Source: Myxococcota bacterium
Lineage (GTDB): Bacteria; Myxococcota_A; Polyangia; HGW-17
Direction: 5' to 3'
Assembly: GCA_018821305.1 (NCBI GenBank)
Contig: JAHJMN010000024.1
Span: forward strand, 1-61,185
Length of the DNA: 61,185 nucleotides
In this document: one piece after another, positions 5,987 through 39,096 of the stretch
How positions within the stretch are numbered: position 1 is the stretch's first letter
How the letters are laid out: the number at the start of each line of letters is the position of its first letter
Program-made: the position numbers and the translations under genes
The notes under the pieces: model-generated
What the model saw: the letters and a program-made list of their open reading frames with translations, nothing else
The model's database searches: none
What the model was told of the DNA's origin: nothing

Positions 5987-7576
5987 TTACTGTAGTTTTT
6001 TATCTTTTGCAAGAACTTCTTTTATAATCACTTCGGCAAGTTGTGGGACTACTTCCCATGCAATCTTTTCAATAATTTCACGGGAAAGCTTGGTGAGGGC
6101 AAGATATTCTGGAGACTCAGATGCGGCAGCTTGAACTTTTTCTACGGAAGCAGCAACAATTCGATTGACCGTTTCTGCACTTGTAACAGAAGAAATTTCA
6201 CTCGCAGGTTTGCTTTCTGATACTTCAGGTGCAACGGGAGGAGCATAACTTGAAAGAAATACTGTATGCCCGGCAGATGGCTTCCCTGCAGGTTTAGCTG
6301 GTTCAGAAGGAACTGACTGCACTTCACCAGTGGGTGACTTCCTTTTAAGTACATTTGAGCTTGATACAACGGGAATTTGACCGCTGGAAGCTTTTCTTTC
6401 CACAGGGGGAATTGGAACGCCTGCGGGAAAAACAGGAGTTTTATCTTCACGATCGGTTTCAATTTCCGAAGAAACAGATCTTGCATTAAACGAACTTGCT
6501 GCCGGTGCCACGGGTATGGATGGCTTTGGAGCTGCTGGAGCAACAGGAGCGACCGGTATAGACGGTTTTGGAGCTGCTGGAGCGACCGGAGCGACCGGTA
6601 TGGATGGCTTCGGGGCTGCTGGAGCAACTGGGGCCACAGGTATGGATGGCCTCGGGGCCGCTGGAGCAACTGGGGCCACGGGTATGGATGGCCTCGGGGC
6701 CGCTGGGGCTGCTGGAGCAACTGGAGCAACTGGTATGGATGGCCTCGGAGCCGCTGGGGCTGCTGGAGCAACTGGAGCAACTGGTATGGATGGCCTCGGA
6801 GCCGCTGGGGCTGCTGGGGCCACGGGTATGGATGGCCTCGGGGCCGCTGGGGCTGCTGGGGCCACGGGTATGGATGGCCTCGGGGCCGCTGGGGCTGCCG
6901 GGGCTACCGGTATAGATGGTTTCGGGGCCGCTGGGGCCGCCGGAGCCGCCGGAGCTACAGGTATAGATGGTTTCGGGGCCGCCGGGGTGGATGGGGCCAT
7001 AGGTACCGATGGTTTCGGGGCACTGGTGACATCTCTGGATACAGCGGGAATTGAACCAGGCGTAAAAGCAGGCATTACCGGTGTGGTAGGTTTGTCGGAT
7101 TTGAATCCCATCTCCGGGAAATCCAGAGGAAACTCTTCTTCTTGATCTACATCATCAGGTGGTTCAGCATCAATGAAGATTTCAAATTCTTCTGGAGATT
7201 GTGCCTTTGCACCAGTTGAAATAACTTTTTCCGTAAGATCAAGAAGTTCCTGTGTAAGGAATGGCTTAATAATATTTGCGTCTGCCCCAACCCCTCGAAC
7301 CTTGTCGAAAGGCTTCATCTGACTTGTCATAATAACTACCGGAATTGCAGATGTAGACGAATCCTGTTTCATTGCTGCAAGAAGATCGTAACCGTCCAGA
7401 CCTGGGAGTTTATTGTCCGCCAGAACAAGAGCAGGCTTCTTTTCTTTTGCCAGCATTAGAGCATTCTGACCATCTGATGTGCTTACAACTTCGTATCCGC
7501 TGTTTTTACCATAAGTCATTTCAATGGCAGTTCTTATGGTTTTACTGTCATCAGCTACAAGAACGATTTTACTCAT
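5987..7576 (-). CDS. Receiver-domain response regulator with long Pro-Ala repeat linker and conserved C-terminal helix
   Basis: 529 aa from ATG 7576 (GAGG at a 6-nt spacing; a GTG 12 bp upstream is less likely). Residues 1-120 are a CheY-like receiver: Asp9/Asp10, phospho-acceptor Asp54 (VLADNKLPG), Thr84 and Lys104 (IIKPF). Then comes an acidic linker, followed by about 12 copies of [KR]PS[IV]PVAP(xAP)n. The last about 30 residues, [20 protein letters not shown] onward, match a C-terminal motif that I recall from deltaproteobacterial regulators. There is no DNA-binding domain, so output is probably by protein interaction. The Pro-rich part is likely an extended spacer. Confidence 0.85.
6493..7015 (-). 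repeat. In-frame coding tandem repeat (42/51-nt units)
   Basis: About 12 units of 14 or 17 codons encode [KR]PSIPVAPxAPAAP inside the response regulator. Units are nearly identical in DNA and differ by whole 9-nt (x-A-P) insertions, which suggests recent slippage or recombination. It is not a CRISPR: units abut without spacers and stay in frame. Confidence 0.9.
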
Positions 7577-7826
7577 CAATATCCTCACTTGCTCCGCTTG
7601 GCAATCCGGAACCCCTTTTCCGATCCAGATAAGCTGAACCCGGAAATATGAAAATACCAGATATAAATCCGCATTAACACGAAATTTGTAACAGAAACTG
7701 AAAAAGATCGCAAGAAATGTGATGTTTATGTTTTTTACAAGCCATTTTCTACACCGAGAATGGCGGTTTTTTGTAAAATACTACGTTACAATTTCAATTT
7801 GCAGATTGTGAGCCCTGAATTATGAA

Positions 7827-8624
7827 TCAGTAATACTTCCTGAAAAATTCGAAAAGTTTACCAATATGATCAAAAACATAGTCCGGTTTTATTTGAAAAG
7901 CATCCGCTTTTTCTCGACTTGTTTCACCACTAAGCATCAAGCAGGAGATCAAATTATTTGTAACACCCATCGTAATGTCTGTATCCAACTGATCTCCAAC
8001 CATTGCCAGCGTCCGGGAATCAGGAAAACCAAGTCTTTCAAGAGCAGCTTCAACCATCGGAGCTGCTGGTTTTCCTGTAATTATTGGATCCCGTCCGGTC
8101 ATTACTTTCAGACCCGCCAGAAAAACTCCCGTATCAGGAGTGAGGCCACGTTCTGTGATACATGTAATATCTGGCTGAGTTGCAAAATAAGGCAAACCGC
8201 GAAATAGAAAATGCCCTGCCATCTCCATCTTGTGATAAGTTATTCCCGTATCAAACCCCATGACTACGCATTGAGGATTTTCCTCAGTCAGAGTAAATCC
8301 CGCTTGAATAAAGTCATTTTCAAGAGATGAAGTACCACTTAAAAATACCCGACGATAATCTGTGTGCTTGAGAAGATATCTTATTGTACTGTCACCGGAC
8401 GTGAGAACTTGATTTTCCGAGACTTCAATTCCTCTTGAAACAAGCTTGTCACGGTATTCTACTGCACTTTTTGAAGAGTTGTTTGTAACATAAATATGAG
8501 GGATATGCTTTTCTCTTAAAAACGCAAGGAATGCCTGAGTGTCATCCATCATTTTCGGACCCACATAGAGGGTTCCATCGAGATCGAGCATGAAAGCTTT
8601 TGGAATTCTTACATTAGAAATCAT
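7827..8624 (-). CDS. HAD-superfamily IIA phosphatase (NagD / phosphoglycolate phosphatase-like)
   Basis: 265 aa. HAD motif I is DLDGTLYVG (14-22), motif II is VTNNSSKS with the IIA-type cap following, motif III Lys lies in IITGKPAAPM, and motif IV is MVGDQLDTDI. This set is typical of the NagD/AraL/PGP group, which dephosphorylates small phosphometabolites; the substrate is unknown. The ATG at 8624 comes one base after the 3' end of tRNA-Leu(UAA). The next Met would leave only two residues before the catalytic Asp, so the upstream start is favoured although there is no room for a separate leader. Confidence 0.87.
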   Translation of the reverse strand: MISNVRIPKAFMLDLDGTLYVGPKMMDDTQAFLAFLREKHIPHIYVTNNSSKSAVEYRDKLVSRGIEVSENQVLTSGDSTIRYLLKHTDYRRVFLSGTSSLENDFIQAGFTLTEENPQCVVMGFDTGITYHKMEMAGHFLFRGLPYFATQPDITCITERGLTPDTGVFLAGLKVMTGRDPIITGKPAAPMVEAALERLGFPDSRTLAMVGDQLDTDITMGVTNNLISCLMLSGETSREKADAFQIKPDYVFDHIGKLFEFFRKYY

Positions 8625-8625
8625 G

Positions 8626-8709
8626 TGCCCGGGACCGGAATCGAACCGGTATAGGAAAAATCCCGGCGGATTTTAAGTCCGCTGCGTCTACCTATTCCGC
8701 CACCCGGGC
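8626..8709 (-). tRNA. tRNA-Leu (anticodon UAA), class II
   Basis: 84 nt. Acceptor GCCCGGG pairs with CCCGGGC, and the discriminator is A. The D arm GCG/CGC has an 11-nt loop. The anticodon arm is GCGGA-CTTAAAA-TCCGC. A long variable arm of about 15 nt follows, then the T arm ACCGG-TTCGATT-CCGGT. CCA is not encoded. It sits one base downstream of the other tRNA and one base before the HAD gene. Confidence 0.96.
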
Positions 8710-8710
8710 A

Positions 8711-8787
8711 TGGTGGCTCTGCTGGGAGTCGAACCCAGAACATCTCGATTTTGAGTCGAGCGCCTCTGCCAGTTGGGCCACAAAGCC
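8711..8787 (-). tRNA. tRNA-Leu (anticodon CAA) with a short, class I variable loop
   Basis: 77 nt with encoded CCA. Acceptor GGCTTTG/CAGAGCC with discriminator A73. The D arm has a 3-bp stem GCC/GGC and an 11-nt loop, as in leucine tRNAs. The anticodon arm is CTCGA-CTCAAAA-TCGAG, so the anticodon is CAA (reads UUG). The variable region is only ATGTT (5 nt), followed by the T arm CTGGG/CCCAG. Bacterial leucine tRNAs normally have a long variable arm, so this is unusual. All stems pair, so it looks functional. Confidence 0.9.
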
Positions 8788-35585: not shown

Positions 35586-36686
35586 TCAGCAAAGGAAGTC
35601 GGCGCCTTCGATTTTGTCCGGAAGGTAATTTTCGGAGATGAAGGAAATCCCCTTTGCACTGAGAGCTTCGAGTTCGAGTTTAACGCGTGAATCAAGGAGT
35701 TTCTTCAATTCTTTTTGCCACTTCTGGTCTTTAAACCAGGGGTAGGCAAGCATCTGTTTAGCACGCTTTTCGTCATTTTTATCAAGGCTGATGGTAACAA
35801 CGTCAGGAAGATCGAATTTTTCGCGGTCGAAGGAACTTAGGCCAAGGAAACGGGCATCGGGAATGGCCATGCGCACGGATTCGTAAGCGAGATTGATACT
35901 TCCCTGCTTGATAACACTGTAAATGTAAAGTCCCCAGGGATCGTTATCCACGAGAACGTAAACAGGCAGATTGAGTTCATCGTGCATTCGGCGGATAAGA
36001 CGGCGAACACCACGGGAGGTTTGCCCCTGAGACTGAATCATAATACAGCCATGTTTTCGCCAGAATTTGTCCTCGTTAAGGCGACGCCAAACGGCGTCTT
36101 TCTCGATGAGGAGAATGTAGTTTGCATCACAGTCTTTAAATTTAATGACATCTTCTTCTACAATGGAGGGAATTCCCCAACCCCCGGAGCCAATTCGGCG
36201 GGCATTGATTGTGTCACCACTGTCCACTAAAGTAAGGTTACCGACCATGGTGCCACGGTTTGAGGCAAAAAGATGCAGTTCCTCACGTAGAGCTCCGAGA
36301 GTAACTTCAAGATCTTCAATTATAATATCCGATTCCGCCTGATCGTCGAATGTGTTTTCACCCCGGGAAAGCGTGTGTTTTGTCATGTAGAAAAGATCAC
36401 GGATACTCGTTGTTTTCTCTACTTTTAATAGCTCCGTGCAGGCGTTCGCAACTAAGAAAGTCTGCATGAACTTCTTACTCATTCCCTGATGGAAGAAAAT
36501 ACGTTCCTGAGTTTTATCCCCCATTTCGATCATGCGCCTTTCCTCATCAAAATTTATGTTGGAAAGGGATCGGATGGGAATATTCAGGTTTGGATTACGC
36601 AAGGCCTTGAAATCATTTATTGCTTCATGAGCCATCACAACGATTTTACGTAAAACATCTATACTTCGAGGGTTATTTCTTTTCAT
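35586..36686 (-). CDS. top6A: DNA topoisomerase VI subunit A (Spo11-like)
   Basis: 366 aa. Residues about 85-115 contain the 5Y-CAP site TSIRDLFYMTKHTL with the catalytic Tyr. The Toprim domain has the Glu in LLIEKDAVWRRL and the DxD in VDNDPWGLYIY. Ends in Cys. Topoisomerase VI relaxes and decatenates DNA with A2B2 stoichiometry. The ATG lies 2 nt after the top6B stop. Type IIB enzymes are mainly archaeal and plant but occur in some bacteria. Confidence 0.95.
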   Translation of the reverse strand: MKRNNPRSIDVLRKIVVMAHEAINDFKALRNPNLNIPIRSLSNINFDEERRMIEMGDKTQERIFFHQGMSKKFMQTFLVANACTELLKVEKTTSIRDLFYMTKHTLSRGENTFDDQAESDIIIEDLEVTLGALREELHLFASNRGTMVGNLTLVDSGDTINARRIGSGGWGIPSIVEEDVIKFKDCDANYILLIEKDAVWRRLNEDKFWRKHGCIMIQSQGQTSRGVRRLIRRMHDELNLPVYVLVDNDPWGLYIYSVIKQGSINLAYESVRMAIPDARFLGLSSFDREKFDLPDVVTISLDKNDEKRAKQMLAYPWFKDQKWQKELKKLLDSRVKLELEALSAKGISFISENYLPDKIEGADFLC

Positions 36687-36688
36687 TT

Positions 36689-38854
36689 CTAGTCCTCGTC
36701 ATCATAATTAAGGTATTTGGATGAAAACAGAGAACCCTCATCCGTGTCATCGCTGTCTTCGTCGTCAGTTTCGCTGTCTTCTACGTCAGAAGTAACATCT
36801 TCTTCGCCATCGCCCGTTTCACCGTCTTCATCCCCGGAAGAATCCGATTTTTTCCGTTCTTTTACTCCGGAATCATCATCTGAATCCTCCGCGTCATCGG
36901 ACCATACAGTAGGCTCCCCAGTATCATCAAGCACAGGTTTTTCTACTTCGTAGTTTGCAGTGGTGAAGTTTTCCATTGCAGTTTCAATGGCTTGATTGAT
37001 TTCGGTAACATTTTCCCCGGTAATTGCTGACAGGGCCCTTGCAAGTTCACTGGAATAACGCACAAAAATATCCCGCCGCTCCTGAGCTGCTTTTAGTTTG
37101 GTTTTTCGTGAGAGATAGTTCCCAAGTTCACGACCGCATTCCTGAAGGCAAAGTTTTACTTCTTCAATAATTTCGGGAAAGTGAGCCACAGCTTCTTTTG
37201 ATTCCGATGTAAAAGGAACCCAGACGCTGGCAAGATGCACCATTATCACAACGGGCCCCTGAGGGTAGCTGCCTTTTGGCTGGTTGATGCCGTAACGTTT
37301 CCAGTTGAGCTCCATAACCGCACGGGAAATGGCGCAGGCTTTTAACTGGTATAAAAGGGGAACCCGGTTTGCAAGCCGGATAATCTGAGCAGGAGATGAG
37401 GAAGCCTCTTTTTTAACAAAATCATTATATGTACGACGAAGACTTTCCAGTTCTTCCGCCGTCAGATTTTTCACCCTTGTTCGGGTACCTACGCCGGTTT
37501 TATCACATAAATCCGCCACTTTTTTTCGTGTAAAACTTGGAAGATCCAGAAGTGCTGCACTTATAGTTTTTTCAGGATCAAGGCTTACACCGGCAATGGT
37601 AAGATCATCCATATCACCGGTTTCCACATTACCTCGTAATTCACCACCATATGCGACGGCGGCTTCCACTACAAAAGGATTTCCACGATATACATGCGGA
37701 GGTCGGGATTTGGAAACGTAAAATTCTGCTTCGTTTACCTGCCGCCCGAGACCGCGTCGCATTAGCACCTCACCGATGGGTACAATGGAATCACTTGAGG
37801 GAGCCATGATTTTAATATTGCCAAGTTCCCGGTGAAGGGTTTCAATTTCTTCGGGAGAAAGTTTGGATGGTCGCTTTCCCACATCAAGTCCAGCGGCGGT
37901 GCATGCCTGCTGAGCAACTTTGGGAGTTACCCGGGAAAACTCAGTCTGAAGAAAAGAACCCACACGCTTGGTTTCCGTCTCGCGAATCATTTTAATAAAA
38001 AGACCCAGTTCAATTCCATGGGGATGAGGCTGCACAGCTTTCGGTTCACGGGGCAGCGCCTGAGAAACGCGGGGAAAGTGCATTCGTTCATGTTTTGGAT
38101 TCACATAGAAAATCTCCGCATGTGGATTTGCTACAGCGGTCTGGGCAAGGTATTCATCCACGCTGTGACGCCCGCTTTTATGCACGCCAACGATTTCCAG
38201 TTCAACCCTGGTTCCATGGGGCTCTTCCCATTCAACTATGAGGTCTTTAATAACGTTGGGACGATTTTTCTGCAGGTCCAAAAGAAGTTCAAAGTGGTGT
38301 GCGGGGTGTTCAAGACCAATTCGGCTTGTAATTCGCACGGGTTTTCCGGTAGTTAACTGACTGTACATACCCGCTGCACTGATTCCGATTCCCTGCTGTC
38401 CCCGGGATTGCTTGAGGGAGTGGAACTTACTGCCGTATAAAAGTTGACCAAAAATTTTCGGAACCTGACTTTTTACAATACCAGGACCGTTATCCTGCAC
38501 AGCAACTCGAAGTCTTTCATCCCCAATTTGTTCGATTTCAACTAAAATAGTGGGAAGAATATGGGCTTCTTCGCAGGCGTCCAGTGCATTATCAACAGCT
38601 TCTTTAACCGTTGTCATCAATGCACGGACTGGTGAATCGAAACCTAAAAGTTGTTTATTTTTAGCAAAGAACTCACTGATGGAAATGCTTCGCTGTTTTT
38701 CTCCCATTTCATCAGCTTTTGTTCTTCTCTCCTTTGGAGGAGAAGATTTGGGCTTTTCTTCAGAAATCGTAGTTTCGATTTCTTCCCCGGCAGGAGAAGA
38801 ATCGTTGCCTTTTTCCAGAAGTGCAAAAAGATCACCTAGTTCCATATCACTCAT
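36689..38854 (-). CDS. top6B: DNA topoisomerase VI subunit B (GHKL ATPase)
   Basis: About 721 aa from ATG 38854; a second ATG at 38845 and an upstream in-frame start at 38938 are possible. GHKL motifs: VKEAVDNALDACEEA (Asn), VQDNGPGI and QGIGISAAGMYSQLTTG. A transducer domain follows. The N-terminus has a 60-residue charged extension before ISISEFFAKNKQLLGF. The C-terminal about 65 residues are extremely acidic (Asp/Glu/Ser), which is not part of archaeal enzymes as far as I recall. Two-nt spacing to top6A. Confidence 0.94.
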   Translation of the reverse strand: MSDMELGDLFALLEKGNDSSPAGEEIETTISEEKPKSSPPKERRTKADEMGEKQRSISISEFFAKNKQLLGFDSPVRALMTTVKEAVDNALDACEEAHILPTILVEIEQIGDERLRVAVQDNGPGIVKSQVPKIFGQLLYGSKFHSLKQSRGQQGIGISAAGMYSQLTTGKPVRITSRIGLEHPAHHFELLLDLQKNRPNVIKDLIVEWEEPHGTRVELEIVGVHKSGRHSVDEYLAQTAVANPHAEIFYVNPKHERMHFPRVSQALPREPKAVQPHPHGIELGLFIKMIRETETKRVGSFLQTEFSRVTPKVAQQACTAAGLDVGKRPSKLSPEEIETLHRELGNIKIMAPSSDSIVPIGEVLMRRGLGRQVNEAEFYVSKSRPPHVYRGNPFVVEAAVAYGGELRGNVETGDMDDLTIAGVSLDPEKTISAALLDLPSFTRKKVADLCDKTGVGTRTRVKNLTAEELESLRRTYNDFVKKEASSSPAQIIRLANRVPLLYQLKACAISRAVMELNWKRYGINQPKGSYPQGPVVIMVHLASVWVPFTSESKEAVAHFPEIIEEVKLCLQECGRELGNYLSRKTKLKAAQERRDIFVRYSSELARALSAITGENVTEINQAIETAMENFTTANYEVEKPVLDDTGEPTVWSDDAEDSDDDSGVKERKKSDSSGDEDGETGDGEEDVTSDVEDSETDDEDSDDTDEGSLFSSKYLNYDDED

Positions 38855-39096
38855 ACTGATTCTCACAATCCGGACAATCAAGTCCGATGCATCGGTTCCG
38901 GGTGCCACAATATTTATTTGAGGGGAAAATTCAAACAAAATCCCCGGAGGAAAAAACCTGACATTTGTTCGTTTTTAAAAACATTGAAGTATTAGCCACT
39001 TAGATCCGGCACTACGGGAGAAAAAATAATGTTCGGAAGGATGTATTATGGAATTTCCAATAAAAACGCGAATTCAAAGGGCGAAGATACCAGATT

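Follow-up and report, generated by a model that had tools for sequence, protein, structure and literature searches.

A tRNA-Leu(CAA) gene with a short variable loop

The 61,185-nucleotide stretch of DNA analysed here (the window) carries a 77-nt tRNA-Leu(CAA) gene on which ARAGORN and Rfam concur (RF00005; score 58.5 bits, gathering threshold 29). It precedes a class II tRNA-Leu(UAA) gene by one base, and a gene for a HAD-IIA phosphatase comes next. The ATG of the phosphatase open reading frame (orf) abuts the 3′ end of tRNA-Leu(UAA), in which CCA is not encoded (8624-8625); either the real start codon lies beyond this ATG or processing of the transcript takes place at the junction. A terminator-like hairpin is present just upstream of the CAA tRNA (8817-8796, minus strand), in a region that is not conserved. 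Elsewhere in the window are complete subunits A and B of DNA topoisomerase VI (35586-38938), an enzyme known mainly from archaea, and a response-regulator-like protein (5987-7588) with a long P/A-rich repeat (PSIPVAPxAPAAP), which opens long orfs in other frames too.

Table 1. Positions of the tandem leucine tRNA genes and of the parts of tRNA-Leu(CAA).
Feature	Position	Strand	Basis
tRNA-Leu(CAA), class I, 5-nt variable loop, CCA encoded	8711..8787	-	ARAGORN, Rfam; in 10/13 order genomes
D arm GCCCAACUGGCAGAGGC, signature of the short-armed leucine type	8762..8778	-	307/374 distinct short Leu tRNAs vs 0/1594 non-Leu (loci mostly recruited by this signature)
Anticodon CAA, reads UUG	8751..8753	-	Sequence, ARAGORN
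Variable loop AUGUU, 5 nt; U48 partners A15	8739..8743	-	U48 in 294/304 five-nt-loop Leu tRNAs
T arm	8722..8738	-	Rfam, covariation
Discriminator A73 and CCA end	8711..8714	-	A73 in 162/166 short Leu tRNAs with encoded CCA
Class II tRNA-Leu(UAA), tandem neighbour	8625..8709	-	ARAGORN, Rfam

The CAA tRNA reads GGCUUUG-UG-GCC-CAACUGGCAGA-GGC-G-CUCGA-CUCAAAA-UCGAG in its first half and, from the variable loop, AUGUU-CUGGG-UUCGACU-CCCAG-CAGAGCC-A-CCA in its second. The acceptor stem has 7 bp and the anticodon and T stems 5 bp each; every stem position is paired, with one U-G. The D arm has a 3-bp stem and an 11-nt loop, and an equally valid drawing gives a 4-bp stem (C13-G22) with one A bulged. 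The molecule has the general features of a tRNA (cloverleaf, covarying stems, T loop UUCGA, encoded CCA) but not the long variable arm of class II. The sequence-only reading had described a class I tRNA-Leu(CAA) with a 5-nt variable region, a Leu-type D arm and A73, and ARAGORN, Rfam and the sequence bear this out. Allo-tRNA and tRNA-Sec-like molecules, in which the acceptor and variable arms are longer (acceptor/T stems of 8/4 or 9/3; PMC7609411), were considered and ruled out on the 7/5 stems and the 5-nt loop.

Leucine tRNAs and LeuRS of the host genome

The host genome is an incomplete draft of 5.22 Mb (97.7% complete), and its tRNA set was assembled from 46 search matches. The leucine set comprises the class I CAA tRNA and four class II tRNAs (CAG, GAG, UAG and UAA). 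These four, like bacterial class II tRNA-Leu generally, share with the CAA tRNA a leucine anticodon, the 3-bp D stem with 11-nt loop, A14, A15-U48, G18G19 and A73; they differ in the variable region (12-19 nt, against 5 nt) and in having G12-C23 and G/A13 where the CAA tRNA has C12-G23 and C13.

A second, class II tRNA-Leu(CAA), for which the sequence-only reading had advised a search, did not appear: no other CAA tRNA is among the matches fetched from this draft. A class II leucine pattern returned exactly the four class II tRNAs named above in the host genome and in genomes G001, G002, G004, G006, G009 and G010 of the order; in G008 it matched them and two more, both within a tRNA array. In seven members of the order this pattern search found no class II CAA gene. 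It is possible that an extra CAA gene is hidden in a gap of the draft, which would require it to have been missed in every member of the order. The neighbouring tRNA-Leu(UAA) could read UUG too, by wobble. One LeuRS, ordinary and full-length, is encoded in the host genome; a second was searched for there and not found.

Conservation in the order and class

Homologues of the CAA tRNA, 91-96% identical, occur in nine further genomes of the order, each a different species and together from four families. All 13 genomes of the order were searched; the tRNA is present in ten, and the remaining three have completeness values of 73%, 86% and 65%. Among 15 homologues, 12 pairs are changed on both sides and 99.7% of cells are paired, a result that no shuffle matches. 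The 110 nt upstream of the gene are unconserved, and CCA is encoded in some of the homologous copies, not all. The tandem pair with tRNA-Leu(UAA) is present in families f1 and f3 and absent from f2 and f4. Elsewhere in the class, in other families, the CAA anticodon is on a class II tRNA-Leu (L042-L046, L051, L053 and L055). One genome of the order also has an array of about 35 tRNA genes (L100; G008:C185, 6535-12430) with a short-armed Leu(CAG) and long-armed Leu(GAG, UAA and CAA).

Since the CAA tRNA is the only one found, is present across the order and has a class II counterpart in related families, it is not recent. The suggestion in the sequence-only reading of a minor or recently remodelled isoacceptor is thus at odds with fixation at the level of the order, and with the occurrence of the type in several phyla and many phages.

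A wider short-armed leucine tRNA type

The CAA tRNA is an exact match to a type that we define by the D arm GYCCAAYNGGNAGAGGC, a variable loop of 5-6 nt and a leucine anticodon, together with A15-U48 and A73. The D-arm signature is present in 307 of 374 distinct short leucine tRNAs and in none of 1594 non-leucine tRNAs among the fetched loci, most of which had been recruited by that same signature. The D arm with a short loop is found in at least 119 genomic stretches, mostly singletons of Actinomycetota with anticodons UAA, CAA or UAG, and also in tRNA arrays of Planctomycetota, Moorena, Nocardia and others. Of 148 Actinomycetes genomes sampled, 44 (about 30%) contain short-armed leucine tRNAs, so that the earlier statement that bacterial LeuRS substrates are normally class II needs qualifying. 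In the host phylum, 29 of the 284 genomes sampled have them too; many of these genomes belong to family f32 (L460-L471), where the short-armed form is a tRNA-Leu(UAA), a separate, family-wide class I tRNA with an NNAGU variable loop. Known phages carry the type as well, annotated simply as tRNA-Leu.

When the pattern was searched with the anticodon left free, leucine anticodons were found in all 133 viral matches (viral subsets: 78/78 distinct tRNAs; 55/55 with a six-nucleotide loop) and in 57 of 58 bacterial matches from 39 genomes; for distinct sequences the counts are 45/45 in Actinomycetes and 26/26 in the host phylum. The anticodons seen on the short-armed body are CAA, UAA, UAG, CAG, GAG and AAG, the whole leucine set. 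The lone non-leucine anticodon is CAC, in Nocardia panacis (G325:C17:549052-549104); this tRNA closely resembles the Leu(CAG) of the same genome, and its anticodon may have shifted or the copy may be decaying. An array on plasmid pNSMS105 of Nostoc sp. MS1 (L459) carries leucine tRNAs with short variable loops (UAG, GAG and UAA) whose D arm differs and is more class II-like, a possible second structural route to a short-armed tRNA-Leu.

Several relatives can be compared directly with the CAA tRNA. The short-armed tRNA-Leu(UAA/CAA/UAG) of Actinomycetota (Arthrobacter, Curtobacterium, Actinomyces) share the D-arm signature, a 5-nt loop ending in GUU and a single-copy housekeeping position, but they are mostly UAA, their loop is usually GUGUU rather than ANGUU, and the acceptor stem differs. 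Leucine tRNAs of phages (Pectobacterium phage POP15, Gordonia phages) and arrays (L041, L100 and L119) have the same body – the tRNA-Leu(CAA) of POP15 is 82% identical over 68 nt, with the loop AUGUU in both – although they are part of mobile elements, with several anticodons per array. Animal mitochondrial tRNA-Leu(UUR) is likewise charged by LeuRS without a long variable arm, with A73 and A14 as determinants (PMC9976931), but is organellar and served by a mitochondrial LeuRS.

The long arm has been reviewed as universal in tRNA-Leu outside animal mitochondria (PMC9976931). In the literature searched, the short-armed bacterial form appears just in a remark on a mycobacterial tRNA cluster (PMC6582537), where a tRNA-Leu(TAG) with a short variable loop lies beside a normal class II isoacceptor and is not the sole one; subscription journals and tRNA databases were outside the scope of the search, and the form may be better known there. 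The short-armed type is widespread, in several phyla and many phages, and hardly described; here a chromosomal member is the sole CAA isoacceptor across an order of metagenome-assembled genomes. Annotation pipelines that take the long arm as an isotype marker should be used with caution, and for engineering such short leucine tRNAs are ready-made.

Leucine identity and a proposed mechanism of charging

The leucine determinants of E. coli are A73, U8-A14, A15-U48, G18G19 and A20a (PMC9976931), and the CAA tRNA has every one of them. Among short-armed leucine tRNAs, A15 is present in 298/302, U48 in 294/304 and A73 in 162/166. The tRNA set of Curtobacterium G338 has one UAA anticodon only, on a short-armed tRNA; the type must carry leucine there, because UUA would otherwise be unreadable as leucine. 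Recoding of UUG was tried as an explanation and rejected: in four synthetase genes of the host genome, UUG codons coincide with columns where related genomes have leucine at a rate of 0.50, as often as other leucine codons do (0.48-0.54).

We conclude that the CAA tRNA is very probably functional and serves as a housekeeping tRNA that decodes UUG as leucine, a judgement made from sequence. A rival reading gives it a different identity, such as Phe, Met or Ser, with UUG recoded or mistranslated; its class I shape might suggest this, as might anticodon bases 35-36 (AA), which it has in common with tRNA-Phe. We give this little credence, since A15-U48, A73 and the D arm are of the leucine type, UUG positions are leucine positions, and the same body bears the full leucine anticodon set and no phenylalanine anticodon, though none was excluded from the search. 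Serine is unlikely in particular, as SerRS requires a long arm and G73 (PMC7609411), both of which the CAA tRNA lacks. Of the sequence-only reading, then, the leucine assignment stands on the determinants, the UUG columns and the anticodons of the body, and the unexpected identity that it had also entertained does not. Still less credible is a non-functional relic, or an error of assembly or sequencing that removed a long arm. The UAA tRNA can decode UUG by wobble, which speaks for a relic, but the 91-96% identity in nine other species, the compensatory stem changes and the unconserved flanks exclude such an error, which the sequence-only reading had raised, and argue against a relic; the failure of the pattern search to find a class II CAA gene in seven members of the order also speaks against both.

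LeuRS most likely charges the CAA tRNA through A73 and the D/T-loop core, with no need of the long arm. For E. coli LeuRS the long arm is dispensable, and tRNA-Leu variants without it stay active (PMC9976931); neither the variable arm nor the anticodon is needed, which would serve as a precedent for charging of the CAA tRNA. The single ordinary LeuRS of the host would read A73 together with the core formed by U8-A14, A15-U48, G18G19 and A20a. Position 13 is usually C in short-armed leucine tRNAs and G or A in long-armed ones. We propose that C13 pairs with G22 and, with position 46, rebuilds the 13-22-46 core of class I, so that the short loop could substitute for the long arm with the shape kept; the C13-G22 pair and the position-46 triple would thus explain, in structural terms, how a leucine tRNA can do without the long arm. 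No charging data for short-armed bacterial tRNA-Leu were found in the literature searched, and these tRNAs offer natural substrates for testing how LeuRS recognises tRNAs that have no long arm.

Origin of the short-armed form

In a tree of 74 columns, which is short for judging origin, the tRNAs of the order cluster tightly (SH-aLRT 93) among short-armed tRNAs of phages, arrays and actinobacteria. Descent of the CAA tRNA gene from the short-armed leucine tRNAs of phages and tRNA arrays is weakly supported, and transfer from mobile elements is plausible. The alternative is that the long arm was lost locally, from a class II tRNA-Leu(CAA) that the lineage already had, with no acquisition of a ready short-armed tRNA. 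A class II CAA tRNA is still present in related families, its anticodon loop CUCAAAA is identical to that of the CAA tRNA, and the class I tRNA-Leu(UAA) of family f32, with its different loop type and separate clade, indicates more than one origin or arrival of the short form. Against local loss, the CAA tRNA aligns with class I CAA tRNAs from other phyla at scores of 49, 44 and 43, well above the 24 for class II CAA tRNAs of its own class, a difference that is partly due to the gap penalty for the arm; the D stem is also GCCC/GAGGC, as in other short-armed leucine tRNAs, and not the GCGG/GACGC of class II. Local loss is therefore a possibility that we take seriously without favouring it.

Descent from the mobile pool can tentatively be extended to a short-armed leucine lineage common to bacteria, phages and arrays, which might have repeatedly displaced the class II reader of UUG/UUA in core genomes (the host order, family f32, many Actinomycetota), and whose short form might evade factors that target long-armed tRNAs. 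The UAA tRNAs of f32 fall on the other side of a split (support 99) that roughly divides the NNGUU and NNAGU loop types, and because they lie in a different, strongly supported clade, at least two origins or arrivals of the short-armed form within the phylum are likely.
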